Positions 3,379-42,477 of a DNA stretch of 42,477 nt are shown piece after piece. The position numbers and the translations under genes were made by a program. The first letter of the stretch is position 1; each line of letters opens with the position of its first letter. Below the pieces are notes generated by a model. That model searched no databases, was not told where the DNA came from, and saw only the letters and a program-made list of their open reading frames with translations. The stretch lies in assembly GCA_903959175.1 (NCBI GenBank), contig CAJBVW010000056.1, positions 1 through 42,477 on the forward strand, written 5' to 3'. Origin of the DNA: an uncultured Pseudomonadota bacterium. GTDB lineage: Bacteria; Myxococcota_A; UBA796; SXON01.

Positions 3379-4418
3379 CGCGGCAACCGGGCGAACGGGT
3401 CGGTGACGACCAGGCTGTCCGCAGGCGCGAGCGCTTCCGCCGCCTCCGACGTGGCGTCGATGCCGCACGCGCGGAGGGGGGCGGGATCGCGCACGCCGGT
3501 GACCACGAGCGGGTGGCGCCGCAGCGTGGCGGCGATCATGACCGCGCGCTGGGTGCCGCCGCCCACGGGTGCGTCCCCGTCGAGGAGCGCGCCCCACGGA
3601 GCCCGGCCCGCCGCGAGCACGGCCGCGAACGCCCGCTCTCCGTCGCCCTCGCCCATGCCCTCGGGGCACGCGGCGTCGAGGTAGAGCGTGGCGCCGGCGA
3701 CGAGCGGCGGGTCGTCCGAGAGGCCGAGGTAGGTCGCGGCGCGGCTCGCCTGGTAGAAGTTCACCGCCTTCTTTGTCGGAACGCGCAGGATCGCGGCGGG
3801 GTGGCGGCGCGGCACGTCCAACCAGCAGTCCAGCGAAGCGGCGGCGCGCGCGAGCGTGGCGCGGGGCTCGCCGGCGAACCACCGCCCCCCAGCGAGCAGC
3901 AGCACCCAGCGGCACCCGGCGGCCTCGCCGAGCCCGTCGATCGCGGCGCGGAAGGGGTTCCCCTCGAGGCGACCGAGGCGCACGCCGGGCGCGGTGACCC
4001 GGTCGCGATGGTGCAGGGCGTCGATGGTCGCGCGCGCGCCGAGCCCGACGGCGACGGCCTTGTGGCCCCCCGAGAACCCGGCGTACTGATGCAGCTCGAC
4101 GATGCCGACGCCGAGCAGCACGTCGGCGTCGGCCACGGCGCGCGAGATGCCGCCGGGGATCCCGTCCACGATCGCGGTGGGGACGGTGTCGTCGGGGTCG
4201 TGCTGGTGGAGCGGGAAGGGGCTGCCGGGCAGCTCGTCGGCCCGCATCGCGCGGTGGAGCCCGAGGCCGACCACCGCACGCACGTCCCCGGCGACCCAGG
4301 GACGCAACGCGTGGAGGGCCGCGTTCACGTCGAGCGGCCGCGTGCCGTCGGGGACCGCGATGCGGACGCGCCCGCCGGACGGGGGAGGGGAGGCCAGGAG
4401 CGCGTCGGCGAGCGTCAT
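3366..4418 (-). CDS. LarA-like (DUF2088) nickel-pincer racemase family protein
   Basis: A 350-residue protein related to LarA, the lactate racemase that uses a nickel-pincer nucleotide cofactor. Visible motifs are PDGTRP at residues 23-28, GLGLHR at 51-56, and HQYAGFSGGHKAV around 110-122. His110, Lys120 and His136 are spaced 10 and 16 residues apart. This equals the spacing of His174, Lys184 and His200 in the Lactobacillus enzyme, where the lysine carries the cofactor and the last histidine binds nickel. That favours a working nickel-pincer enzyme. The protein is shorter than typical LarA (about 420 residues). No larB, larC or larE cofactor genes are in the window. The substrate could be a hydroxyacid other than lactate. 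It follows the GT-C gene by 30 bases on the same strand. Confidence 0.75.
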   Translation of the reverse strand: MTLADALLASPPPSGGRVRIAVPDGTRPLDVNAALHALRPWVAGDVRAVVGLGLHRAMRADELPGSPFPLHQHDPDDTVPTAIVDGIPGGISRAVADADVLLGVGIVELHQYAGFSGGHKAVAVGLGARATIDALHHRDRVTAPGVRLGRLEGNPFRAAIDGLGEAAGCRWVLLLAGGRWFAGEPRATLARAAASLDCWLDVPRRHPAAILRVPTKKAVNFYQASRAATYLGLSDDPPLVAGATLYLDAACPEGMGEGDGERAFAAVLAAGRAPWGALLDGDAPVGGGTQRAVMIAATLRRHPLVVTGVRDPAPLRACGIDATSEAAEALAPADSLVVTDPFARLPRYAP

Positions 4419-5812: not shown

Positions 5813-6544
5813 ATGTCTGTTGGTCGAAGCGCGCTCCTCGCCTCGCTGCTCCTGCTCCCGCTCGTCTTCGGCGGCTGCGTGCCGAAGAAGCCGCTGGACG
5901 ACACCGACACTCCCACCGATATGAACCCGCCGAGCGTCCGCCTCCAGGTGGCTGCGATCGACCCGGCCCAGGCGCCGGCGGATCGTGCGCTGGACGCGGA
6001 GATCTTCGGCAGCGGCTTCGAGAGCGGCGCCAAGGTCAGCTTCAGCGGCGCCGCCGCCACGACCGTCCGCTTCGTCGACGAGAACTCGCTCCGGGTCGGC
6101 GTCCCCGCGATGCCCATCGGCAGCTACGACGTGATCGTCACCAACCCGGACGGCACCAAGGCCACCTTGCGGAAGGGCCTCACGCTCACGGAAGGTGCGG
6201 CTTCCACCGCGGGTTGTGCCTCGGTGACCCTGGCTTTTGACCTCGACAGCTCCGTGCTCGCGTCCAGCACTCGCGCCGAGCTCGACCGCCTTGCCCCCTG
6301 CCTGCGCGAGGGCACCGCCACCGTGCGGATCGAGGGCCACTGCGACGAGCGCGGCACCACCGAGTACAACATCGCGCTCGGGCAGCGTCGCGCTGACGCC
6401 GTCCAGCGTTACCTCGTGGGCCTCGGGGTGACGCCCGCACGCCTGCGCACGGTCTCCTACGGGGAGGAGCGCCTGATCGACCGGTCCGGCACCGAGTCCG
6501 CCCACGCCAGGAACCGTCGCGTCGAGATCCTCGTCCGGGAGTGA
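5813..6544 (+). CDS. pal: Peptidoglycan-associated lipoprotein (Pal) with an extra IPT/TIG domain
   Basis: A 243-residue lipoprotein with a type II signal peptide and lipobox FGGC (Cys22). Residues about 37-122 form an immunoglobulin-like IPT/TIG module (IFGSGFESGAKVSFSG, VIVTNPDG). Residues about 135-243 are an OmpA C-terminal peptidoglycan-binding domain with GHCDERGTTEYNIALGQRRA and SYGEERL, plus NRRVEI at the end. Pal anchors the outer membrane to peptidoglycan as part of Tol-Pal. Classical Pal lacks the Ig-like insert, which makes this form longer. It overlaps the CpoB-type gene by four bases, the usual pal-cpoB order; tolQRAB are not visible upstream in this window. Confidence 0.88.
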   Translation: MSVGRSALLASLLLLPLVFGGCVPKKPLDDTDTPTDMNPPSVRLQVAAIDPAQAPADRALDAEIFGSGFESGAKVSFSGAAATTVRFVDENSLRVGVPAMPIGSYDVIVTNPDGTKATLRKGLTLTEGAASTAGCASVTLAFDLDSSVLASSTRAELDRLAPCLREGTATVRIEGHCDERGTTEYNIALGQRRADAVQRYLVGLGVTPARLRTVSYGEERLIDRSGTESAHARNRRVEILVRE

Positions 6545-30748: not shown

Positions 30749-31138
30749 TCAGCGTTCGTCTTCGCCGCTTCCGCCCTTCTTCCGTCCCTCGGCTTCCTTG
30801 CCCTCTTCGATCAGCTCCTTGACGCGTTGTCCGCCCTTGTGGCCGATCTGCGCGTAGCCCTCCGAGCCGAGCTGCTCCTTGCGCGCCTCGCCGCCCATGC
30901 GGCCGATCTCCGCGTAGCCCGCGTGTCCGAGCTGCTCCTTGCGGGTCTCCCCGCCCTTCTTCCCGATCTCCGAGAAGAATTCGGAGCCGCGTTCCCGCGC
31001 GACGGTCTCCCCGCCCTTGCGCCCGATCTCGGCGTAGCCCTCCGAGCCGAGCTCCTCGCGGCGCTTCTCCCCGCCGAGGCGTCCGGCCTCGCGCACCGTC
31101 ATGTCCCCGGTGCTCCGTCCCTTCTTGTCCGTTGGCAT
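30749..31138 (-). CDS. KGG-repeat (stress-induced) protein with five repeats
   Basis: A 129-residue hydrophilic protein. The start ATG has GGAGGAG just upstream. After MTVREAGRLGGEKRREEL come about five units of roughly 21 residues, such as GSEGYAEIGRKGGETV, GSEFFSEIGKKGGETRKEQL, GHAGYAEIGRMGGEARKEQL and GSEGYAQIGHKGGQRVKELI. The KGG motif belongs to stress-induced disordered proteins. The C-terminus is highly charged. It is the upstream gene of a tandem pair with the shorter paralogue (54-base gap), a likely duplication. Confidence 0.82.
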   Translation of the reverse strand: MPTDKKGRSTGDMTVREAGRLGGEKRREELGSEGYAEIGRKGGETVARERGSEFFSEIGKKGGETRKEQLGHAGYAEIGRMGGEARKEQLGSEGYAQIGHKGGQRVKELIEEGKEAEGRKKGGSGEDER

Positions 31139-31300
31139 TGCTCCTCCCCTCCGGCCAGCCATCCAGCGGCACGGCCTCTCCGTACCTTGGGTAGTCATGA
31201 CCCGGACGTGTTCAACGTGGACGCCAGCCGTGCGACACACCTCGTGACGAACGCGCGGTTTGCTGCCGGGCGCCGCGTGGCCACCGGCCCGGCTACACTC

Positions 31301-31936: not shown

Positions 31937-32305
31937 GGGGGCGTACCGGTTTCGACGGGGTTCTGAATAGCCGAAGGGCGTGGCAAGGTGCGGGTCGCCT
32001 CTATCGATCCAAATGTAAGCTGCCAACAACAGCAACCACTTCAGCGAGGCCCTCGCGGCTTAGTTGAGGTCCCAGAGGCATAGCGACCACTGGGTGTCCG
32101 GATGAGCGTGATCGAACTCTTCTGGGCATATTTCAGATCCGCAGCAGACCCGGGGCCGAGCACCCGCCGGGCGAGCGAAGACTCAACAGGGGGCTCTGAC
32201 GGTGATCAAAGATCACGACACTCGCCGATGAGCTTTCGGCAGGCCACGTATCTCTGACTCTTGAAGGGGCTTCGGACGCGGGTTCGACTCCCGCCGCCTC
32301 CACCA
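31937..32305 (+). ncRNA. ssrA: tmRNA (trans-translation RNA)
   Basis: The 5' end GGGGGCG pairs with CGCCTCC before the terminal ACCA (7-bp acceptor stem with one G-U pair). GTACCGGTTTCGACGGGG is the usual tmRNA 5' sequence. The 3' part holds the T-arm (GCGGGTTCGACTCCCGC) and ends ACCA at 32302-32305, followed by a T6 run. The tag frame begins at GCC 32022 and reads ANNSNHFSEALAA to the TAG at 32061-32063; the ALAA end is the normal degradation signal. tmRNA with SmpB rescues stalled ribosomes. The length (369 nt) is normal. The 3' end serves as the attachment site for the neighbouring island. Confidence 0.95.
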
Positions 32306-33582
32306 TTTTTTCGGAAAGCGTCCAACGAAAGGACCTTTCCAGCGACCCGGTGTCCAGCAGGGACACGCGGGGGACACGCGGGATCGCGGCGCGGCCTCGG
32401 AGCATATCCGAGGTCGCGACGCTCCTCGTCGTCCATCATGATGAGGCGCATCGGGCCCGTGGTCTGGTCGTCGCCGTCGAAGCGCACGTCAGCGGGGGCG
32501 GCGGCCGGGCGACTCACCGCCGGGATGTGCTCCACGGCGGCCTTGAGCGGCAGCGCGTCCGGGTCGATGTAGACCCCGCGCAGGCCGAGGCTGTGGCCGA
32601 CGAGGAACTCGACGGCGTCCGAGTCGGCGCCGGCGCGCTTGAGCTCGGAGACGAAGCCCTTGCGGAAGGCGTGGTGGGGGCGGCCCTCCCAGGCTTCCTT
32701 GCGGACGCCGGAGCGCTCCCAGCCACGCTCGAGGTCGCGGGCCCGGGCCATGCGCTCGCGCGCCTTGGCGCGTTTGGAGGTGATCATCCACTCGTCCTCG
32801 CGCTCCCAGTCGCGGAGGATCGCGACGAGGTGCGGGGAGATCGGCACGATGCGGCCCCGCTGTTCCTGGCGGCTCTTGCCCAGCTCGCCGCGGATGGTGA
32901 GGCGGCCCCGGCCGAGGTCGACGTCGGCCCATCGGAGGCCCATGGCCTGCTGGCAGCGGAGCCCGGTGAAGCGCAGGACAATCGCGAGGCGCTGGTGCCA
33001 CCCGTCGAGCGCGCCGATGACCGTGTCCATCTCGGCCCAGGTCGGTGCGACGGTGGGGCTGGCGGCCTCGCGGGCCATGCGAAGGGTGCGCGGGGCGGGG
33101 ATCTCGGCGCCGGACTCGTCGTTGTCGTACATCCACTTCCACGCGAGCTGGCCGACCTCGACGATCTTCCGGCGAGTGGCGTCCGAGCGGTCGCGCCCAT
33201 GGAGCCCGCCGTGCTTGAGGTCGCCGTACCAGTCCGAGAGCATGCGGCGGGTGAGAATGGACGGAGGCAACGGCGCGCCTTTGCCGTGGACTTTGTCCAG
33301 GTAGCGCAGCCAGAGGTCGAGCCCGAGCGCGTAGCGGACGGCGGTCCCGGGACGGAGCACGCGCGCGCACTCCTCGGCGTAGTCCTTCAGGAGCGTTCGG
33401 ATATCCGTTTGCGGACGAGCGTCGCGAGGCTCCCATCGCCGTCCGAGGGCGAAGGCGTCTTCGACCTCGCGGATGAGCGCTTGGGCGGCGGCCTTGGTGG
33501 GGCACTGCCGGCTCCGCGCCTTGCCATCGGGATCACGCCAGCGCACACGCCACTCGCCGTTTCGTTTGTCGAGGCTCGCCAT
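32206..33582 (-). CDS. Tyrosine recombinase (site-specific integrase)
   Basis: A 458-residue integrase from the ATG giving MASLDKRNGEWRVRW; the frame stays open upstream but that stretch has no family resemblance. The N-terminal arm-binding part (about 1-55) is followed by a core-binding helical domain (about 58-175). The catalytic domain has Arg209 (FTGLRCQQAMGLRW), His304-x-x-Arg307 (HHAFRKG), His330 (LVGHS) and the nucleophile Tyr338 (GVYIDP). It cuts and joins att DNA through a phosphotyrosine link. The last 33 codons lie within the antisense of the tmRNA 3' end (from GGGGSRTRVRSPF on), so the C-terminal tail is made from the attachment site itself. Its end may differ in the excised circle. 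Confidence 0.9.
   Translation of the reverse strand: MASLDKRNGEWRVRWRDPDGKARSRQCPTKAAAQALIREVEDAFALGRRWEPRDARPQTDIRTLLKDYAEECARVLRPGTAVRYALGLDLWLRYLDKVHGKGAPLPPSILTRRMLSDWYGDLKHGGLHGRDRSDATRRKIVEVGQLAWKWMYDNDESGAEIPAPRTLRMAREAASPTVAPTWAEMDTVIGALDGWHQRLAIVLRFTGLRCQQAMGLRWADVDLGRGRLTIRGELGKSRQEQRGRIVPISPHLVAILRDWEREDEWMITSKRAKARERMARARDLERGWERSGVRKEAWEGRPHHAFRKGFVSELKRAGADSDAVEFLVGHSLGLRGVYIDPDALPLKAAVEHIPAVSRPAAAPADVRFDGDDQTTGPMRLIMMDDEERRDLGYAPRPRRDPACPPRVPAGHRVAGKVLSLDAFRKNGGGGGSRTRVRSPFKSQRYVACRKLIGECRDL
32274..32305 (+). other. Probable integration site (att) at the tmRNA 3' end
   Basis: The 3' end of tmRNA genes is a common target of tyrosine recombinases. Here the recombinase gene lies immediately beyond the CCA end and points towards it. 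The intact 3' end of the RNA would be restored by the element. No second copy of the T-arm/acceptor sequence was noticed in the rest of the window, so the other att site is expected to the right of it. Exact crossover bases cannot be set. Confidence 0.6.
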
Positions 33583-33827
33583 CGGTTCAGCTCCATCCAC
33601 CAGGGGTCCAGCTTCTCGGCCAGCCAGCGGTAGTCCGGGCGGCCGGCGTTCCCCACGTTGATCCACGGGGACGCGATGTGGTCGGGGTTCTCCGCCATGC
33701 GGGCGCGGAGGGTCTTGGGGTCGACGCGCAGGTGCGCGAGCACCTCCCGGTGCCGGAGCCATGTTGACGTAATGTGCGCGGCCTGGGGGGCTGGCGGGAC
33801 GTCGTGGCGGCGGGCGGGGAGGGACAT
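33387..33827 (-). CDS. Small HTH (excisionase-like) protein overlapping the integrase start
   Basis: A 146-residue frame. Residues about 18-85 look like a real MerR/excisionase-like HTH (STWLRHREVLAHLRVDPKTL, RARMAENPDHIASPWINVG, then YRWLAEKLDPWWMELNRW). The last 60 residues (Pro/Arg/Ser-rich) are read out of frame with the integrase over 196 bases and look like a by-product. The ATG lies five bases after the stop of the coiled-coil gene, so translation could be coupled. Functionally it may direct recombination or bind island DNA. Either the protein really has this tail, or a frameshift joins it to the integrase; sequence alone does not settle this. Confidence 0.5.
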   Translation of the reverse strand: MSLPARRHDVPPAPQAAHITSTWLRHREVLAHLRVDPKTLRARMAENPDHIASPWINVGNAGRPDYRWLAEKLDPWWMELNRWRASTNETASGVCAGVIPMARRGAGSAPPRPPPKRSSARSKTPSPSDGDGSLATLVRKRISERS

Positions 33828-33832
33828 GAGGG

Positions 33833-34588
33833 CTACGCGGTAAAGCGACTGGCGGCGGCGAGGATCTCCGCCGCGCCCTCGTTCAGCTCGAGGTTCTCGC
33901 GGCGGAGACGACGAACGGCGTTGAGAAGCTCCGCGTTCTCGGCGCGGAGTCGCGTGGCCTCGGTCTCTACTTCCTTCGCGCGCCGGCCCTTGGAGCGGGC
34001 GGCCTCCTCCGCGGACCTGGCGTCGCGCTGGGCGTCACGCACGGCGGTCTGGGCGGTGCCGAGCATCGCCGAGAGCTCGGCGATGCGGGACTGGAGCAGG
34101 GCGACGGTGGTGCTCGCGGAGGCGCAGGTGGGACACGGGGCGGCGTAGGTCGGCGTCGCGACCGGCCGCTCGCGCCGAACCGGGACGCCGTGCGGGCGCG
34201 CCTTGGTGATCGTGGCCGGGCCCTGGACCACGAGCTGTTTGCTCGGGGCCGCGCTCGCCGCCTCCTCGTCGTCGTCGTCCTTCCAACCGGACGTCTCGTC
34301 GGCGGGCGCGTCGGCCTCGGGCCACACGCGCGTCGTGATGCCGCGGATCGGCGCTCGATCAACGTTCCACAGACGGATCCGCAGCCGAACGTCGGAGCCG
34401 GCACCGAGGGCGCCGACCGCGACGCCATCGAGCCACTCGCGCGCGTCCAAGGCGTCGTCGATCGGCTGGCTGCCGATCTGGGCCTCCTTCCGGTCCCCGC
34501 CCACCCGCGCGACCGTGAGGTAGGCGCCTTCGAGGTTCACGCCCTCGACGATCAGCTCGGTGATCGGGGTCTCATCTTGCCATCGCAT
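33833..34588 (-). CDS. Unknown protein with zinc-knuckle-like CxxC and C-terminal coiled coil
   Basis: A 251-residue protein starting at an ATG with GGAG seven bases upstream. The N-terminal 90 residues form a predicted beta domain (ITELIVEGVNLEGAYLTVAR, DVRLRIRLWNVDRAPIRG). A charged linker follows (WKDDDDEEAASAAP). CPTC at about 152-155 is a single CxxC. The rest (about 158-245) is a long coiled coil (VALLQSRIAELSAMLG, RSAEEAARSKGRRAKEVE, LRAENAELLNAVRRLRREN). No family recognised. It is divergent from the XRE gene across 93 bases and precedes the HTH/integrase genes on the same strand, so it may share their transcript. Confidence 0.6.
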   Translation of the reverse strand: MRWQDETPITELIVEGVNLEGAYLTVARVGGDRKEAQIGSQPIDDALDAREWLDGVAVGALGAGSDVRLRIRLWNVDRAPIRGITTRVWPEADAPADETSGWKDDDDEEAASAAPSKQLVVQGPATITKARPHGVPVRRERPVATPTYAAPCPTCASASTTVALLQSRIAELSAMLGTAQTAVRDAQRDARSAEEAARSKGRRAKEVETEATRLRAENAELLNAVRRLRRENLELNEGAAEILAAASRFTA

Positions 34589-34681
34589 CGGAAGCTCCTT
34601 GCCGAATGGGCGTGGGCCCTTCCGACGAGGTATCTTTCCTCATGCTTCCGCTCGTGTCAACCCTAATAGGGCGCAAAACTC

Positions 34682-35155
34682 ATGGATAGGTCTGCCTCGC
34701 GTCGTCGCGGTCCCCGGATGGTTCCTGCCAAGGGCCTGGAATTCCGGGAAGAATCCGTGGTCCTCATGCATCGGCTGTACGGACGCATGATCGCGACCAT
34801 CCGCACGAGCCTGGACGCCTCCCAGCAGCAGCTTGCCGAGGCCACGCACATGCCCCCCTCGACCATCAGCAAGCTGGAGAACGGGAGCATCATCGTCGGC
34901 ATCTACCACCTCGACGCGCTGGCGGGAGCGTTCAACCAGCTCGGAACCGAGGTGCTCGGCGCCGATCCGGCGTGGCGCGGGTGGGAGCTCCACGAGCTCG
35001 CCGACGAGATCAGCCTCTCCATGGAGAAGGAGGGCTACGTGACGATGTGGTCCTCTCCCGACGACGCCGGCAAGGAGATGGTCCCGGACCGGAAGCTCGG
35101 GGCGCTGGTGCGGGCGCACTGGCCGGAGGGGGCGCGGAAGAGGATTGGGTGGTGA
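34682..35155 (+). CDS. XRE-family transcriptional regulator
   Basis: A 157-residue protein. An HTH_3/XRE domain covers about residues 29-88 (YGRMIATIRTSLDASQQQLA, EATHMPPSTISKLENGSI, YHLDALAGAFNQLG). The remaining 65 residues (WRGWELHELADEISLSMEKE, GYVTMWSSPDDAGKEMV) are unassigned. Internal ATGs at residues 13 and 29 are possible starts; no strong ribosome-binding site decides. Transcribed divergently from the coiled-coil gene, it probably controls the island's integrase-side genes or itself, as island repressors often do. Confidence 0.75.
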   Translation: MDRSASRRRGPRMVPAKGLEFREESVVLMHRLYGRMIATIRTSLDASQQQLAEATHMPPSTISKLENGSIIVGIYHLDALAGAFNQLGTEVLGADPAWRGWELHELADEISLSMEKEGYVTMWSSPDDAGKEMVPDRKLGALVRAHWPEGARKRIGW

Positions 35156-35170
35156 GCGGGGACTACGGCT

Positions 35171-35270
35171 CCGCGCGGATCCGCGCGGATCCGCGCGATC
35201 TGCGGAGGTGCGGAGGGGCGCGGAGGGGTGCGGAGCGGCGCGGAGGAGTGCGGAGCGGCGCGTATGAGCG
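35171..35270. repeat. GC-rich short-repeat tract downstream of the XRE gene
   Basis: The tract begins with the 18-base palindrome CCGCGCGGATCCGCGCGG (35171-35188). It continues with imperfect repeats of GCGGAGG/GCGGAGC-type units (TGCGGAGCGGCGCGGAGG and near copies) to about 35270. It lies between convergent gene ends. It could act as a terminator region; no coding capacity is credible. Confidence 0.6.
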
Positions 35271-35363
35271 CGGTACGGTGCGGTGGGATCGGCCGAGCGG
35301 ACGCGACTGCGATTGCCTGCGTGCTCATCAGCCGAGAGGCGCCGAGCGCCCCCCAGAGTGCGT

Positions 35364-35618
35364 CTACCCCTTGGCCTTCCGAGCTGCGTACACCTTGTCG
35401 AGGTGCGCCTCGAGGTCGATCCGCTTCACCGGGCGTCGGCCGGGGTACGCCAGCGCGTCGGCCTTGAGCGTCGCGATGCTCGTCGGGTTGTTCGCGTAGC
35501 CGCGCGTGGTGATGTAGTGGTGCACGAAGCTCGATACCTCGTGCGGCTCGGTGAGCGCGACCCACTGCTGGTCGATGGGTCCGCGGATGCTGGAGTTGTC
35601 GTTGTCGGGCCAGGGCAT
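35364..35618 (-). CDS. 84-residue protein of unknown function, behind a sigma-54 promoter
   Basis: The protein reads MPWPDNDNSSIRGPIDQQWV, then ALTEPHEVSSFVHHYITTRG, then YANNPTSIATLKADALAYPG and a basic C-terminal helix (VKRIDLEAHLDKVYAARKAK). It is soluble, with a central helical pair and a positively charged tail. I recognise no family. A GAGG ribosome-binding site lies about seven bases upstream. It is preceded by a near-consensus sigma-54 promoter and by a pair of sites shared with the restriction operon, so it is probably co-activated with it. Possible roles include a small effector or an anti-restriction/modulator protein, but none is supported by motif. Confidence 0.65.
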   Translation of the reverse strand: MPWPDNDNSSIRGPIDQQWVALTEPHEVSSFVHHYITTRGYANNPTSIATLKADALAYPGRRPVKRIDLEAHLDKVYAARKAKG

Positions 35619-35670
35619 GGTTGCCTCGCTGATGGTGAAGTTGAGCCGGGATGGTCTCGGCCCTCACTTC

Positions 35671-35686
35671 AGCACAGCCCGTGCCA
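35671..35686 (-). promoter_or_regulatory. Sigma-54 (-24/-12) promoter before the 84-residue gene
   Basis: Read on the minus strand: TGGCACG-GGCT-GTGCT. The -24 element is perfect (TGGCACG); the -12 element has GTGCT against TTGCT. GG and GC are separated by exactly ten bases, the required spacing. Transcription would begin near 35659, about 40 bases before the ATG at 35618. Confidence 0.75.
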
Positions 35687-35726
35687 GCCAAAAATACTGG
35701 TTCTACCTTTCACCACACCATCGTTC

Positions 35727-35760
35727 GCAGAAGACGCTTCACATGTGCAGACTACTCTGC
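35727..35760 (-). promoter_or_regulatory. Pair of putative activator (enhancer) sites for the 84-residue gene promoter
   Basis: GCAGACTACTCTGC (35747-35760) is a perfect GCAG-N6-CTGC inverted repeat. GCAGAAGACGCTTC (35727-35740), exactly 20 bases away, is the same motif with one mismatch (CTTC for CTGC). They lie about 40-90 bases upstream of the -24 element, partly in the 3' end of the activator gene. The same motif occurs twice at 37273-37306. Confidence 0.65.
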
Positions 35761-37263
35761 GTCGGCCGAGTCGATCCCCAACTGCCGCATCCAGTCCGTC
35801 ACCGACTGCCGGCCGATCCCGATCAGCTCCCCCGCCTCGACTTTTCGCCCGCGCGTCTGCCGCAGCGCACGAACCAGGTAGTGCCGTCGCACATCGTCCA
35901 CGAGCTCCTTGACCTGGAGGCCGTCGCCCAGGGGCCGCTCGAGGATGCCGTCGCCGCTCGCCTTTGGTACGGACAGGAGCTCCACGTCGTCCGCCTCGAT
36001 GGTGGTCCCAGTGGACCAGATGGTGGCGCGCACGAGCGTGTTCTGGAGCTCGCGGACGTTCCCGGGCCAGTCGTGCTCGGTCAGCTTCTTCCTCGCGCCG
36101 TTCGACAAGCGACGGCGCTGGTACCCCGGTCGCCCCGCGGCCTTCTCGTTGATCTGCTCCAGCAGCGTGTCGATCATCACCTGGAGGTCAGCCTTCCGTT
36201 CCCGAAGCGCTGGAATCCGCAGGATCGCCACAGCCAGGCGGTAGTAGAGGTCCTCGCGGAACGTGCCGTCCGCGACCATCCGAGCGAGGTCCCGGTGCGT
36301 GGCGGCGACGACCCGCACATCGACCCGGCGCGTGGTCTGAGCGCCAACGGGCTGCACCTCCCCTCGCTCCAGCACCCGAAGCAGCTTCGACTGCGCGCTC
36401 AAGGGCAGCTCGCCGATCTCGTCCAAGAACAGGGTGGACCCATTGGCCGCCTCGAACGCGCCGACATGGTCCTTGTCCGCACCGGTGAAGGCCCCTCTCA
36501 TGTGGCCGAACAGCGTAGACTCGACCAGGTCCTTTGGAATGGCGCCGCAGTTCCTTAGGTGCAGGGTCTTGCCGGCACGAGGGCTGGCGTCATGCATCCC
36601 TCGAGCGAACAGCTCTTTCCCTGTGCCAGACTCCCCGAAGATCAGGACCGGCACCTCCCGCTCGGCCACCCGTCCCGCCCGCGTGATCAGCGCCTCCATC
36701 GCCTTCGACCGGTAGACGATGTCCCCGAACGCCCCGCTGGCCCTGCCGGCACCGAGGTCGGCCAACACGCGGTCGGAGGCGCGCAATGCGTCGGGAAGGA
36801 ACTCCGTGAACACGTCGAAGGGCACGGTGGCCTCGACGACGCCCGCCTCGACGGAGGAGTTCGTGAGTCGCGCGCGATGCGGCCCTCGCCCAGCGAGGAT
36901 CCAGACCGCAGTCATCGCCGGGGTGCCGGAGCTCAGGTTGAACGTCGGCTCGGTCTCCTCGGTGAGCGTCTCCTCCAGGACCTTCCTCACGCCCGCGTAG
37001 ATCTGGCCGAAGTGCATGGGCTGGTCGAGGGGCACATCGCGGCAGTCGACTGAGACGCCCGCCCGCTCTCGGAGCCAAGTCACGTAGGCGTCCAGACTGG
37101 CCGCGTCGAACAGATCGCTCCCCGCCTTGGGGTCGCGAAGCAGTACCGCGCCACGCAGGTCGAGCCGCGCATCGAGTAGGGTCGCCGCCAGGGCGCCGGT
37201 CTGACCGGCGCGCGCCAGCTTGATGTCCGCGGCGCCGATCCAGCTGTAGAGGACGTTGCTCAT
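35752..37263 (-). CDS. CARF-domain sigma-54 activator (RtcR-like bEBP)
   Basis: A 503-residue bacterial enhancer-binding protein. Residues 1-160 form a CARF-like sensor: [11 protein letters not shown] at the first strand, and [18 protein letters not shown] (108-125) corresponding to the ligand-contact strand and loop seen in RtcR (ITTGT in E. coli). The AAA+ sigma-54 domain (about 175-430) has Walker A GESGTGKE (210-217), the sigma-54 contact loop GAFTGA (257-262), Walker [10 protein letters not shown] (277-285) and [12 protein letters not shown] (399-410). A Fis-type HTH covers about 455-495. CARF proteins sense cyclic nucleotides or RNA ends. No rtcA/rtcB RNA-repair genes are adjacent; instead sigma-54 promoters flank it on both sides, before hsdR and before the 84-residue gene. 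The GAFTGA loop indicates a genuine activator. Confidence 0.88.
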
Positions 37264-37272
37264 ACGGGCTCC

Positions 37273-37306
37273 GCAGAGAATACTGCCATAGGGCAGAGCA
37301 AGCTGC
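37273..37306. promoter_or_regulatory. Pair of putative activator (enhancer) sites between the CARF activator and hsdR
   Basis: GCAGAGAATACTGC (37273-37286) and GCAGAGCAAGCTGC (37293-37306) are two perfect GCAG-N6-CTGC inverted repeats, starts exactly 20 bases apart, two helical turns. They lie about 90-120 bases before the hsdR sigma-54 promoter, a typical enhancer distance, and 10-43 bases from the activator's own ATG. Confidence 0.7.
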
Positions 37307-37333
37307 CTCTATCGGGCGCGAGAAACACGTCAA
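37306..37333 (-). promoter_or_regulatory. Possible sigma-70-type promoter of the CARF activator gene
   Basis: On the minus strand: TTGACG (37333-37328), 16 bases, TAGAGG (37311-37306). Transcription would start near 37299, inside the second enhancer-like site, so binding there could repress the activator's own synthesis. Confidence 0.4.
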
Positions 37334-37394
37334 GAACCGCGGACCTAGGAAGGATGACTGGTTGGACCGCACCTTTCCACGCAGCGTTCAGCGC

Positions 37395-37410
37395 TGGCAC
37401 GGATCCTGCT
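37395..37410 (+). promoter_or_regulatory. Sigma-54 (-24/-12) promoter before hsdR
   Basis: TGGCACG-GATC-CTGCT matches TGGCACG-N4-TTGCT at all but one base. GG (37396-37397) and GC (37408-37409) are ten bases apart as required. Predicted start near 37421, giving a leader of about 160 bases before the hsdR ATG. Confidence 0.85.
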
Positions 37411-37422
37411 AACGGTGGGCGA

Positions 37423-37453
37423 GCGCCGAACGTCCTCAGGGCCGGCTCGGCGC
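37423..37453 (+). other. 5' leader hairpin of the hsdR transcript
   Basis: GCGCCGA (37423-37429) pairs with TCGGCGC (37447-37453) at the very 5' end of the predicted sigma-54 transcript. It may protect the mRNA end or hold a regulatory structure. Apart from this, the 318-base gap between the activator and hsdR holds the promoters and paired sites described separately. Confidence 0.45.
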
Positions 37454-37581
37454 CGCCCCCCCACCCGCTCCCGTCCCCTCGCGCCAACCTCTCCGAGTTC
37501 ACGATGCCCTCCCCCCTCAACCCGCAGCCAGCCACAACCCGGTACACTCCGCCGGGCGCAGCCGTGCCGCCGAGGTGCATC

Positions 37582-40500
37582 ATGAATTCGCTCAACTTCG
37601 AGTTCCTGCGCCCACGGCGCCCCGCGATGGCGGACCTTGGCGGCTTTGCCGAACGCTACGCCTGGTCCGACCCCCCGTCGTCCCTCCTGAAGCTGCGCTC
37701 GCTGCTCGAGGAGATGGTCGCGTGCATCTACGCGGAGCAGCGCCTGCCGCAGCCCGAGCGCGCCGGCCTGAACGATCTGTTGCTCGAAGCTGTGTTCGAG
37801 GACCTCGTGCCCAAGGTCGTGCGCGAGAAGATGCACGCCCTCCGCCTCCGGGGGAACAAGGCCGCGCACGGGGAGGCAGTGCGGCGGGAGACGATCGAGC
37901 CGCTGCTGCGCCACGCACACGACGTCGCCTCGTGGTTCTTCATCACCATCGATGGCGGCCGACTTCCCGCGGTCGGCACCTTCGCGGTTCCGCCGTTGGT
38001 CCCGCCCGACGAGCAGACCAAGGGCGAGCTCAAGCGTGAGAAGAAGGCCCTGGCCGAGGAGCTGGCCCGGCAAGAAGCGCGTCTTCGGCAGGTCCTCGTC
38101 GAGCTGGAACAGGAGCGCGCGAAGCACGACTCGGAGAGCCGCGCCGCCAAAGAAGCCCTCTCCGAGCTCAAGGCGAGCGGCGAACGCGCAGCGGCCGACC
38201 TCAAGTTCAGCGAGGCCGAGACCCGGCGGTTCCTGATCGACACCGCCCTGGTGGACGCCGGTTGGAGCGTTGGCGCAAAGGGTGTCGACACCGACCAGGT
38301 CGGCCAGGAGGTGCTGCTCCACGGGATCCCGAACAACGCTACCGGTGATGGCTACGCCGACTACGTGCTCTGGGGCGCCGACGGCCTCCCTCTCGCGGTC
38401 GTGGAGGCCAAGAAGACCGCCAAGAGCGCCGAGCAGGGGCGCACCCAGTCGTGGACCTACGCCAACGCGCTCGAGCGGAAACACGGGCGGCGACCTGTGA
38501 TGTTCTACACCAACGGGATGGACATCTGGATCTGGGACGACGGTGCGCCCAGCGCGGGCTCACCGCCAACCCCGAGGAAGATCTACGGCTTCTACTCGAA
38601 GGACAGCTTGGAGTACCTCCTGTTTCAGCGCAGCAACAAGGAGCAGCTGGAGCTCGTCGAGCCGAACAAGGACATTGCAGGCCGGATGTACCAGATCGAG
38701 GCGATCAAGCGGGTGACCGAGCGTTTCAGCGAGGGGCACCGAAGGGCCCTCGTTGCCCAGGCTACGGGGACGGGCAAGACCCGCGTAGCGGTGTCGCTCT
38801 GCGACGTGCTCACCCGCGCGAAGTGGGCGAAGCGGATCCTGTTCTTGTGCGACCGCCGCGAGCTGCGCAAGCAGGCCGACGGGGTCTTCAAAGAGTTCCT
38901 GCCGGGCGAGCCGCGCATGATGGTCTCGTCGGCGACGTCGGCGGACCGCGACAAGCGCGTGTACCTCGCGACCTACCCGGCCATGATGCAGTGCTTCGAG
39001 AGCTTCGACGTTGGCTTCTTCGACCTCATCATCGCCGACGAGTCCCACCGGAGCATCTACAACAAGTACCGCGACCTGTTTCGGTACTTCGACGCCCTCC
39101 AGGTCGGCCTCACCGCCACCCCGGTGCGCCTCCTCGACCGCAACACCTACAGCCTCTTCGGCTGCGAGGACAAGGACCCGACCTTCAACTACACGCTGGA
39201 CGAGGCCATCAAGAACGACCCACCCTACCTGGTGCCCCCGAGGGTGGTGAAGGTCACGACGAAGTTCCAGCGCGATGGCATCCACTACAGCAAGATGACG
39301 GACGACCAAAAGCAACAGCTCGAGGCGCAGGCCGCGGACGCCGCCAACTTCGAGCATGAAGCGTCGGATCTCGACAACCGCATCTTCAACAAGGACACGA
39401 CCCGCGCCATCCTGCGGAACCTGATGGAGAACGGCATTCGGGACGCCCAGGGGAGCCTGCCCGGGAAGACCATCATCTTCGCACGGAGCCACAAGCACGC
39501 GGTCCACATGGGGGAGGTCTTCACCGAGCTCTACCCGAAGTACGGCGGGCACTTCTGCCGGGTGATCGACAACTACGATCCCAAGGCCGAGCAGCTCATC
39601 GGCGACTTCAAGGATCCGGGCAACCCGCTGCGCATCGCCATCAGCGTGGACATGCTCGACACCGGCATCGACGTGCCCGAGGTGGTCAACCTCGTCTTCG
39701 CGAAGCCCATCCAGTCGTACGTGAAGTTCTGGCAGATGATCGGGCGCGGCACCCGCTTGTGCCGCGACCTGTTCGGGCCGGGCAAGGACAAGACCGAGTT
39801 CCTGATCTTCGACCACTGGGGCAACTTCGACTACTTCGACGAGGAGTACGTGGAGGTGCAGCCTCCGCGCGAGGTCTCGCTCATGGAGCGGGTGTTCGTC
39901 GCCCGGGTGACCGTAGCGGCGACGGCCCTGGAGAAGATGGAGGAGGAGGTCTTCCAGCTCGTGATCGGGCTCATTGCTGCGGACATTCGCACCCTCCAGA
40001 CCTCCCGAGCGATCGACGTGCGGGATCGCTGGCGCGACCTCCAGACCCTCGGCGCCCAGGCGACGTTGGAGCAGTTCGCCGCCGCCACCCGCGCGGCGCT
40101 GATCGACACCGTCGGCCCCCTCATGCGCTGGGCGGACATCCGCGACGATGAGGACGCCTACCGGTTCGACCTGCTCGTGGCCGAGCTCCAGACCGAGCTG
40201 CTTCGTGCCTCCGGCCGGTTTGCCGACTTGAAGGGCCGACTGCTGAGCGAGGTGGACGCCCTCCAGAAGAACCTCAACCCGGTGAAGGCCAAGGCCGAGA
40301 CGATCAAGCGCGTGCACACGACGGAGTTCTGGGCGGGCGTCACCGCACTCGCGCTCGATGAGGTTCGGGCCGAGCTCCGAAGTATCATGAAGCACAAGGT
40401 GCGCGTGCGGCCGCCCGGACTGGACCCGCGTACTATCGACGTGAAGGACGGTGGCGAGGAGCGCCACCACCACGTTCCGACGTTCGAAGGGCAGGAGCTG

Positions 40501-40995
40501 ATCGCCTACCGGCAGCGCGTCGAGGGCGTGCTCAAGGAGCACTTCCAGGACAATCCCATCCTTGCGCGCATCCGGGGGGGCGAAGGGGTCTCCGACGCGG
40601 ACCTGGAAGCCCTCTCGCGGATGGTGCTCCACATCGACCCGCAGATCGATCTGAAGCACCTCCCGGTCCAGATCAACACCAAGGGCGACCTGCATCGCGC
40701 CCTCCGAAGCATCGTCGGCCTCGACGCGGGCGCGGTGGACCGGGCCTTCACGGCGTTCACGCACAACCACCTGGAGCTGACCTCGACGCAGTACCGGTTC
40801 CTGGCCATGCTCAAGGCTCACATCTGCGCGAACGGCGGGCTGGAGATCGAGCGGCTGTACGAGCCGCCGTTCACCACGCTGGACCCCAACGGCATCGACG
40901 GCATCTTCAAGGACGACGAGGCGGTCATCACCGAGCTGCTCGACATCGTCATCCGCTTCAACCTCCCCAATGTTTCCACCGGAACAGCATCATGA
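37582..40995 (+). CDS. hsdR: Type I restriction enzyme subunit R (HsdR) with N-terminal DUF4145/HEPN-like domain
   Basis: A 1137-residue protein. The ATG giving [16 protein letters not shown] was chosen for its GAGGTG site; an earlier in-frame ATG (37504) lacks one. Residues about 15-122 resemble DUF4145 ([20 protein letters not shown], then [14 protein letters not shown]), a HEPN-like helical unit with Arg90-x5-His96. A coiled coil follows at about 145-215. The nuclease domain has D260 and E275-x-K277 (VVEAKK). The SF2 motor has Walker A TGTGKT (395-400), DESH (486-489), TATPV and [16 protein letters not shown]. The end matches the EcoEI-type C-terminal domain. HsdR translocates and cuts unmodified DNA. 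The stop overlaps the hsdM start (ATGA). Confidence 0.9.
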
Positions 40996-42477
40996 TCACC
41001 GGCCCCCTCAAGAACGATATCGACAAGCTCTGGGAGGCGTTCTGGACGGGCGGGATCACCAACCCGTTGACCGTCATCGAGCAGATCTCCTTCCTCATGT
41101 TCCTGCGTCTGTTGGACATCAACGAGACACGGAACGAGAAGCAGGCTCGCCGCACGGGCAAGGCCGCGAAGTCGGTGTTCGGTCCCAGCGAGCAAGACCT
41201 GCGCTGGTCACACTTCAAGCAGCTCAGCGCGGAGGCGAAGCTTCCGCTCGTCCGCGATCGGGTGTTCAAACACCTGCGCGAGCTGGGCACCACCGAGCGG
41301 CAGGGTGGGCTGTTCGACGACGCACGCCGCTCCACTTGGCAGGAGTACATGGCGGACGCGCAGATGATGATCCAGCGCCCGAGCCTGCTGAGCCAGGCGA
41401 TCGACATGGTGGACGCCCTGCCGCTCGACCGCGGTGACACCAAGGGCGACCTTTACGAATACGTGCTGAGCCAGCTTAAAACCGCCGGGATCAATGGGCA
41501 GTTTCGGACGCCGCGGCACGTGATTCGGTTGATGGTCGAGCTGTTGGCCCCCAGGCCGGACGAGACCATCGCCGACCCCGCTTGCGGCACGTCCGGCTTT
41601 CTCGTGGGCGCGATGCAGTATCTGTTGGAGAAGCACACGTCTGTCGAGTCGCGGGTGGACCTCGGAGCGGACGAGCACGGGAATCCCCAATACATCTACG
41701 GTGGGGACGGGCTGGAGCCCTACCGGGACCACATCCAGAACCGGATGTTCCACGGCTTCGACTTCGACGTGACGATGCTGCGTATCGCGGCGATGAACCT
41801 GATGCTCCACGGGGTCGAGAACCCCGAGATCCACTACCGGGATACTCTGTCGAACTCGTTCCCGGAGAAGTTCCCTCAGTACGCGGAGGACTACTTCGAC
41901 GTGATCCTCGCCAATCCGCCCTTCAAGGGGAGCCTGGACTACGCTGACGTGCACGGGTCGCTGCTCCGGAAGGTCAAGACGAAGAAGACCGAGCTGCTGT
42001 TCATCGCCCTCATCCTCCGGATGCTGAAGAAGGGTGGGCGGAGCGCCACCATCGTTCCTGACGGCGTGCTGTTCGGCTCGTCCACCGCCCATGTTGCGCT
42101 CCGGCAACACCTGATCGACGAGAATCAGCTCGAGGCGGTGATCTCGTTGCCATCCGGGGTCTTCAAGCCCTACGCTGGGGTCTCCACGGCGATCCTCGTG
42201 TTCTCCAAGGGGGGAAGGACGGAGAACGTCTTCTTCTACGATGTCCAGCGCGATGGGTATTCCCTGGACGACAAACGCACGCCCGCAAGCGAGCGCACGG
42301 GACCGCTCGGGCCGTTGAAGGACAACGACCTGCCCGCCGTGGTGGCGGCTTGGGCTGGACGTGACGCAAGCACGCTCACAGATCGCGCGGCGCCTTGCTT
42401 CATGGTGCCGCGAGCGGACATCGAGGGGAACAAGTACGACCTGTCGATCAATCGGTACAAGAGAGTGGTGCGCGTGG
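40992..42477 (+). CDS. hsdM: Type I modification subunit M (HsdM), 3' end outside window
   Basis: The frame is open from the ATG overlapping the hsdR stop to the end of the window (495 codons), so the gene is incomplete. It begins [20 protein letters not shown] with the HsdM N-terminal helical domain ([20 protein letters not shown]). The methyltransferase has motif [10 protein letters not shown] (195-203), [18 protein letters not shown] before it, and motif IV NPPF (308-311), typical of N6-adenine methyltransferases. It protects host DNA and forms the core enzyme with HsdS, which is expected just downstream. The gene order R-M and the overlap show one operon under the sigma-54 promoter, unusual because modification normally has to be made before or along with restriction. 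Confidence 0.9.

Follow-up and report, generated by a model that had tools for sequence, protein, structure and literature searches.

A tyrosine integrase gene that reads through its own predicted attachment site into ssrA in a bacterial defence island

In attP sites of the lambda type, arm-type sites lie on both sides of the core, and in elements of the SSV type integration splits the integrase in two. A further arrangement has been described for Mx8, where attP lies inside int and integration swaps a 112-residue C-terminus for 13 residues, yielding a less active product (PMC4701971); a review passage ascribes to this integrated product a changed specificity and the action of a molecular switch (PMC6070905). 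According to the account in PMC4701971, the arrangement occurs in very few integrative elements, and streptococcal ICEs integrated at rumA likewise carry att in the integrase gene, which has another C-terminus when excised. In mycobacteriophage BPs attP is located in the repressor gene, and integration swaps the C-terminus and switches the fate of the protein, as outlined in PMC4557955. For the Islander islands, the text of PMC4383910 describes a target restored at one end, a displaced 3' fragment at the other, tandem islands, and an enrichment of tmRNA as target above any tRNA type; its authors treat integrases extending across attP as an exception and name Mx8 and SSV.

The locus reported here has an int/attP anatomy that, judged from the DNA, is of the Mx8 kind, and it belongs to another integrase clade. 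The window, i.e. the whole stretch of 42,477 nucleotides that was analysed, corresponds to positions 1-42477 of a contig of 121.7 kb (C56). Its attachment target is the tmRNA gene ssrA (31937-32305, plus strand; ARAGORN, and Rfam RF00023 with 95 bits), which is intact at the left junction (attL). Two right-hand copies of the ssrA 3' end were found beyond the window on the same contig: C56:65664-65689 is identical in 26 of 26 bases to window 32287-32312, and C56:96859-96881 in 23 of 23 bases to window 32283-32305. Two islands lie in tandem between these sites, E1 (C56:32306-65682, 33.4 kb), with int at its left end and its left part in the window (32306-42477), and E2 (C56:65683-96881, 31.2 kb). 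The att core comprises 19 bp, ACTCCCGCCGCCTCCACCA (32287-32305, plus strand), that recur at the right end of E1, and 26 bp, up to 32312, are common with the E1/E2 junction. E1 has the intact tDNA on its left and a 3' fragment of that gene on its right, which makes it a tDNA-targeting island, and it resembles the Islander islands in the restored target, the displaced 3' fragment, the choice of tmRNA and the tandem arrangement. The integrase of E2 is a different one (C56:65718-66857, 379 aa) and ends about 35 bp before its att copy; upstream of this gene lies an HTH_17-like gene, and E2 also contains several ORFs of 850-1770 aa. The tag peptide that ARAGORN reports for ssrA (window 32022-32063), EVPEA and a stop, looks wrong, as the sequence gives ANNSNHFSEALAA and a stop, a normal-looking tmRNA tag.

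The genes of E1 (window 35752-42477, and on C56 to 65410) include an RtcR-PspF2 CARF regulator, type I restriction-modification subunits, an AAA ATPase, a helicase, and Wadjet-like JetA and JetC together with a weak JetD match; this content was read from Pfam scans of 15 of 22 picked ORFs and PADLOC scans of 9. No virion families were detected among the 15 of 22 ORFs scanned with Pfam, which yielded defence genes instead, and E1 is a defence island. On the other side of ssrA, a repetitive minus-strand ORF with KGG-type repeats (30749-31172; GYAEIGRKGGE...) presumably resembles the stress-induced KGG proteins.

The int gene (32206-33582, minus strand) encodes a tyrosine integrase of 458 aa in the integrated state. 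Its start was set to the ATG at 33582 from homologues (MASxxKRN); the listed ORF begins at 33762. The product matches Pfam Phage_integrase (PF00589, E 3e-14) and shows the R..HxxR..GH..Y pattern of tyrosine recombinases, with R209, H304, R307, H330 and Y338 invariant or almost so in 22 relatives and the catalytic tyrosine (codon 32569-32571, minus strand) invariant among the 22 aligned. Another 120 residues follow Y338, the last of them read from ssrA. The original prediction had placed about 100 bases of this frame in the antisense of ssrA, and this is confirmed: the TGA (32206-32208) lies inside antisense ssrA beyond the att core, and the overlap is exactly 100 bp (32206-32305). The codons past the core (32206-32286, minus strand) are those for which sequence from the right end of the element substitutes in the predicted circle. 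Unlike in SSV-type elements, every catalytic residue stays upstream of att. A short ORF that overlaps the int start (33387-33827, minus strand; no Pfam match) is placed like uoi of Mx8, where an excisionase gene overlaps the start of int, and by this analogy we would guess that it is an excisionase gene.

Between the tyrosine codon and the core, the int frame contains putative arm-type sites of the P' arm, GTGTCC-N5-GTGTCC (32361-32377, minus strand). The starts of the two hexamers are separated by 11 bp, the second lies exactly 65 bp away from where the acceptor stem begins, and a third copy is inverted (32350-32355, GTGTCC on the plus strand). Across 79.6 kb of contig sequence there are two such pairs, at 32361 and 65530, i.e. 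at both ends of E1. We infer that these repeats are arm-type integrase sites; the E1 attP would then be laid out like a lambda-type attP, with repeat pairs flanking the core on both sides. The frame of int passes the repeats, passes the core and stops beyond. As read from the sequence, the P' arm and the core of the element's attP both fall within the int ORF, the crossover itself being placed there by inference.

A search of 377 phylum genomes found the left pair with its core in 11, and all 11 have a gap of 59 (57-61 allowed); a reversed control pattern matched 2 of the 377. The left pattern misses G223, which has a different core sequence, and the C19 copy of G289, in which the first hexamer is altered. 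In two of the 11 genomes, at L026/L101 and L102, the left module is present but non-coding, the integrase ending 8 nt before the repeats. Since the module is present where the integrase has already stopped, it is a conserved DNA element. Seven right ends, drawn from six genomes, were aligned (E1, G208, G189, G193, two in G034, and G030); in each, the right-arm pair begins 132 or 133 bp away from the core. The right-arm search matched 8 of 377 genomes, and two matches without a tDNA-like core (G289 C85 and G224) were omitted from the alignment. The predicted attP of the family thus has pairs at -76/-65 and about +132/+143. The two right-end att copies of G034 (C3:1137-1282 and 3727-3872; L109 and L116) are 2.6 kb apart and have similar arms; no integrase of the read-through clade was found in that genome.

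The same left geometry is found in Mx8. In AF396866 the Mx8 int has a tRNA-like core at 6446 and, at -76 and -65 relative to the acceptor start, GTGACA repeats, a pair that is unique in the 49.5 kb read, while a degenerate pair lies at +125/+136. Thus, in both systems direct repeats 11 bp apart lie at -76/-65 inside the frame, whereas the right pair is at 132/143 in the E1 family and at the degenerate 125/136 in Mx8. As far as the published description of Mx8 cited above goes, the two also share an attP in the int frame and an integration event that gives int a new 3' end. They differ in the target (tmRNA, tRNA-Leu or tRNA-Ser in the E1 family, a tRNA in Mx8), in the native tail (about 20 residues in E1, 112 in Mx8), in the arm hexamer (GTGTCC versus GTGACA) and in the defence genes of E1. 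The proteins are not close homologues: BLASTP gave no significant match between Mx8 Int and the E1 integrase, and hhalign a probability of 67.6% with E 5e-5. By these comparisons the two integrases are only distantly related, and their likeness would lie in the way of working, not in descent.

The rumA-integrated ICEs use serine recombinases and a protein-coding target, whereas E1 has a tyrosine integrase and an RNA gene target. In BPs attP lies in the repressor and in E1 in int, so that E1 is not an immunity system of the BPs type. The viral form of the BPs protein carries, in the account cited above, an ssrA-like degradation tag; neither form of the E1 tail resembles one, and a degradation tag at either tail (endings EGGE and CRDL) was considered and found unsupported. 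A literature search over open-licence papers with narrow wording returned no report of this exact arrangement, and we do not claim its absence from print.

We then considered how far the overlap is shared by related integrases. Relatives of int were sought in 282 phylum genomes (matches at 1e-20 in 22, the own genome counted), 63 order genomes (11 at 1e-60) and 71 class genomes (13 at 1e-60), groups that overlap, and a further scan of genome contigs gave 6 loci. Ten distinct clade members are in frame through the place of the core (window, L020, L080, L082, L083, L021, L022, L024, L025 and L100); three of them are damaged genes (L080, L083, L100), and L022, nearly the same as L050, runs off its contig. 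Their targets are tmRNA (window, L020, L080, L100), tRNA-Leu (L024) and tRNA-Ser (L025), the rest having no adjoining RNA gene. Close homologues (60-96% identity) have no stop codon before att and read through it as the E1 gene does. In L021 and L105 (G223:C306) a clade integrase is accompanied by intact arm repeats, but the core place reads GGACTCGCAGGG (for L021, GGACTCGC), a sequence other than the usual core, with protein genes beyond and no RNA gene nearby, and the element perhaps has another target. No int relative above 33% identity was found in phage and plasmid collections and none by protein in IMG/VR, where two matches to the repeat pattern were dismissed as chance (other gap lengths, no RNA gene).

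Because a survey of 30 PF00589 loci gave one tDNA-facing gene (the motif used there missed the clade itself), the base rate was taken from the collected loci, which were gathered mostly as relatives of the E1 integrase. Among 11 distinct integrase ORFs facing a tDNA, four read through (window, L013, L024, L025), all of one clade, and the other seven, all outside the clade, stop 39-123 nt short. Taken alone, the overlap of int with ssrA is not beyond chance. Of the antisense frames that enter a tDNA from its 3' end, 109 of 117 stay open for 30 nt, 85 of 117 for 60 nt and 26 of 39 for 90 nt, i.e. most of them, and the 154 nt preceding att are open in 32% of dinucleotide shuffles. These values would suit a frame that happens to reach ssrA without a stop in G+C-rich DNA and is of no consequence. 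The clade pattern exceeds chance: 10 of 10 members are open through the core place with the frame kept across six tail lengths, against 0 of 7 tDNA-facing integrases outside the clade, and we consider such an idle run-on very unlikely and already disfavoured. In a tree of 22 integrases built from columns without the tail, the seven read-through rows are monophyletic (100/98), L026, which stops, is their sister (89/83), and one change of state accounts for read-through. In this sister lineage (L026, L102) the integrase stops before att, and read-through seems to have arisen once, as an extension over an older arm-site module.

To see what integration does to the protein, the island ends were joined in silico. 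For E1, the tail after GGGGGS changes from RTRVRSPFKSQRYVACRKLIGECRDL (458 aa) to VPGDREVRPPGPGSEEEGGE (452 aa), and with the ends of E1+E2 joined it becomes RRRLRGQPKPRLSRRSAP (450 aa). Likewise, G208, of the same genus, has an ssrA element with a 95-96% identical integrase and attR at C175:106293-106311, in which the tail is RTRVRSPF when integrated versus VPGDREDAGSSGVVEEEGGDSEGDGEG when joined; this gene is frameshifted upstream. In G289, a 77% identical integrase belongs to the second element of a tandem array, and its frame crosses the core into the end of the neighbouring element. Another element with a 383-aa integrase (plus strand) lies between ssrA and the clade element at L082 (G289:C120), an array that reflects repeated use of one site. 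That the int tail would change with each integration or excision is well supported by these junctions. The earlier proposal that the last codons are exchanged therefore stands, as the tail is altered in the predicted circle; that the two forms would act as a switch for excision is a further proposal.

Ahead of att, the tail shows signs of constraint as protein. The tyrosine-to-second-repeat distance takes six values (205, 196, 193, 175, 169 and 145), all 1 modulo 3, which is what translation of the stretch ahead of the repeats would predict. The clade-specific segment RFDG...PMRLIMMDD (32428-32484, minus strand) appears weakly to moderately constrained as protein, and a motif FDG..P.R.ITL recurs in the extension before att. 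Ka/Ks in the catalytic part is 0.15-0.36 for intact genes and 0 over 67 codons of L080, compared to 0.53 and 0.92 in two comparisons of the L083 remnant; it is 0.25-0.74 between the tyrosine and the repeats, with 0.28-1.13 for the stretch past Tyr+17, and 0.30-1.28 from the repeats to the core. The pairs are few, overlapping and not independent, with one saturated pair and one without synonymous change left out, and the tail conservation that these ratios indicate is weak. Based on Ka/Ks, the frame kept over six tail lengths and the recurring motif, some of the extension probably functions at the protein level.

In a selected switch, circular and integrated forms would differ in activity or direction, and excision would be held down until needed. 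The post-core tails vary in length and sequence between relatives and are unconserved, ranging from 8 residues (G208) to 142 (L025) when integrated and from 9 to 27 in the circle, and tandem arrays such as L082 take their tail from whichever neighbour adjoins. AlphaFold2 models residues 1-358 mostly with confidence and gives 360-458 a pLDDT under 50, so that the post-core tails are predicted to be disordered. The precedent of Mx8, with a less active integrated product (PMC4701971) that the review passage calls a molecular switch (PMC6070905), speaks for a switch, as do the shared left-arm geometry and the frame and motif kept before att. A difference in charge also points this way: all six read-through genes that adjoin an RNA gene have integrated tails with a net positive charge, +2 to +7 (for L024, L025 and L100 the first 26 residues alone were counted), and circle tails are net -3 to -9 in E1, G208, G189 and G193, i.e. 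acidic in four of six right ends with G030 set aside. Against this, the circle tails of the two G034 right ends carry almost no net charge, and purine content, again with G030 set aside, is 0.70-0.81 in the circle tails and still 0.66-0.80 in the arms past the stop. As the purine richness continues past the stop, the acidity needs no selection at the protein level. A hand count of codon-position differences in the right arm gave no excess at third positions, and the acidic tails were rejected as a case of protein-level conservation. Taken together, we regard a selected switch as rather unlikely. Highly improbable, in our estimate, is its more specific form, a charge swap in non-phage islands in which an acidic circle tail from the right arm would give way to a basic tail from host antisense tmRNA or tRNA; if it were true, a host RNA gene would supply the last residues of the enzyme holding the island and alter its DNA affinity or direction.

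Control might also act on RNA. A strong intrinsic terminator (C56:96888-96921, L012:8188-8221; 15-bp stem with 10 G-C pairs, T run) begins 7 bp past the distal att copy; it is the probable ssrA terminator and lies about 64.6 kb away from that gene. No intrinsic terminator was found on the plus strand in 32250-33600. Integration would part ssrA from its terminator and place int antisense downstream, such that ssrA read-through opposes int expression only in the integrated state and the protein tail is incidental. The missing terminator and the one beyond the distal att copy agree with this, but ssrA transcription may nonetheless end at CCATTTTTT, which follows the T-arm hairpin at the junction, and the corresponding scan of G208 found no terminator by its criteria; we think RNA-level control unlikely.

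The reading that we prefer, and hold to be probable as a whole, is that int lies over its own attP, that read-through has arisen once and that the tail swap is a tolerated by-product. E1 is a tDNA-targeting island whose int overlies the P' arm and core of its attP; the integrase would bind the GTGTCC repeats, recombination would take place inside the 19-bp core, and each integration or excision would exchange the last 20-27 residues. The exchanged tail is most likely tolerated and should alter activity no more than modestly, since it lacks conservation and probably also structure, whereas the DNA beneath it is conserved as attP. A regulatory role for the exchange is possible, with an RNA-level effect as a further possibility, and the evidence favours the by-product.

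The arrangement of Mx8 thus recurs in a separate integrase clade, in at least one island with defence genes and at three RNA targets, and an older arm-site module probably served as its base. Since the sister lineage with a stop before the arms serves as a natural control, the question whether C-terminal exchange regulates excision becomes testable in this family.
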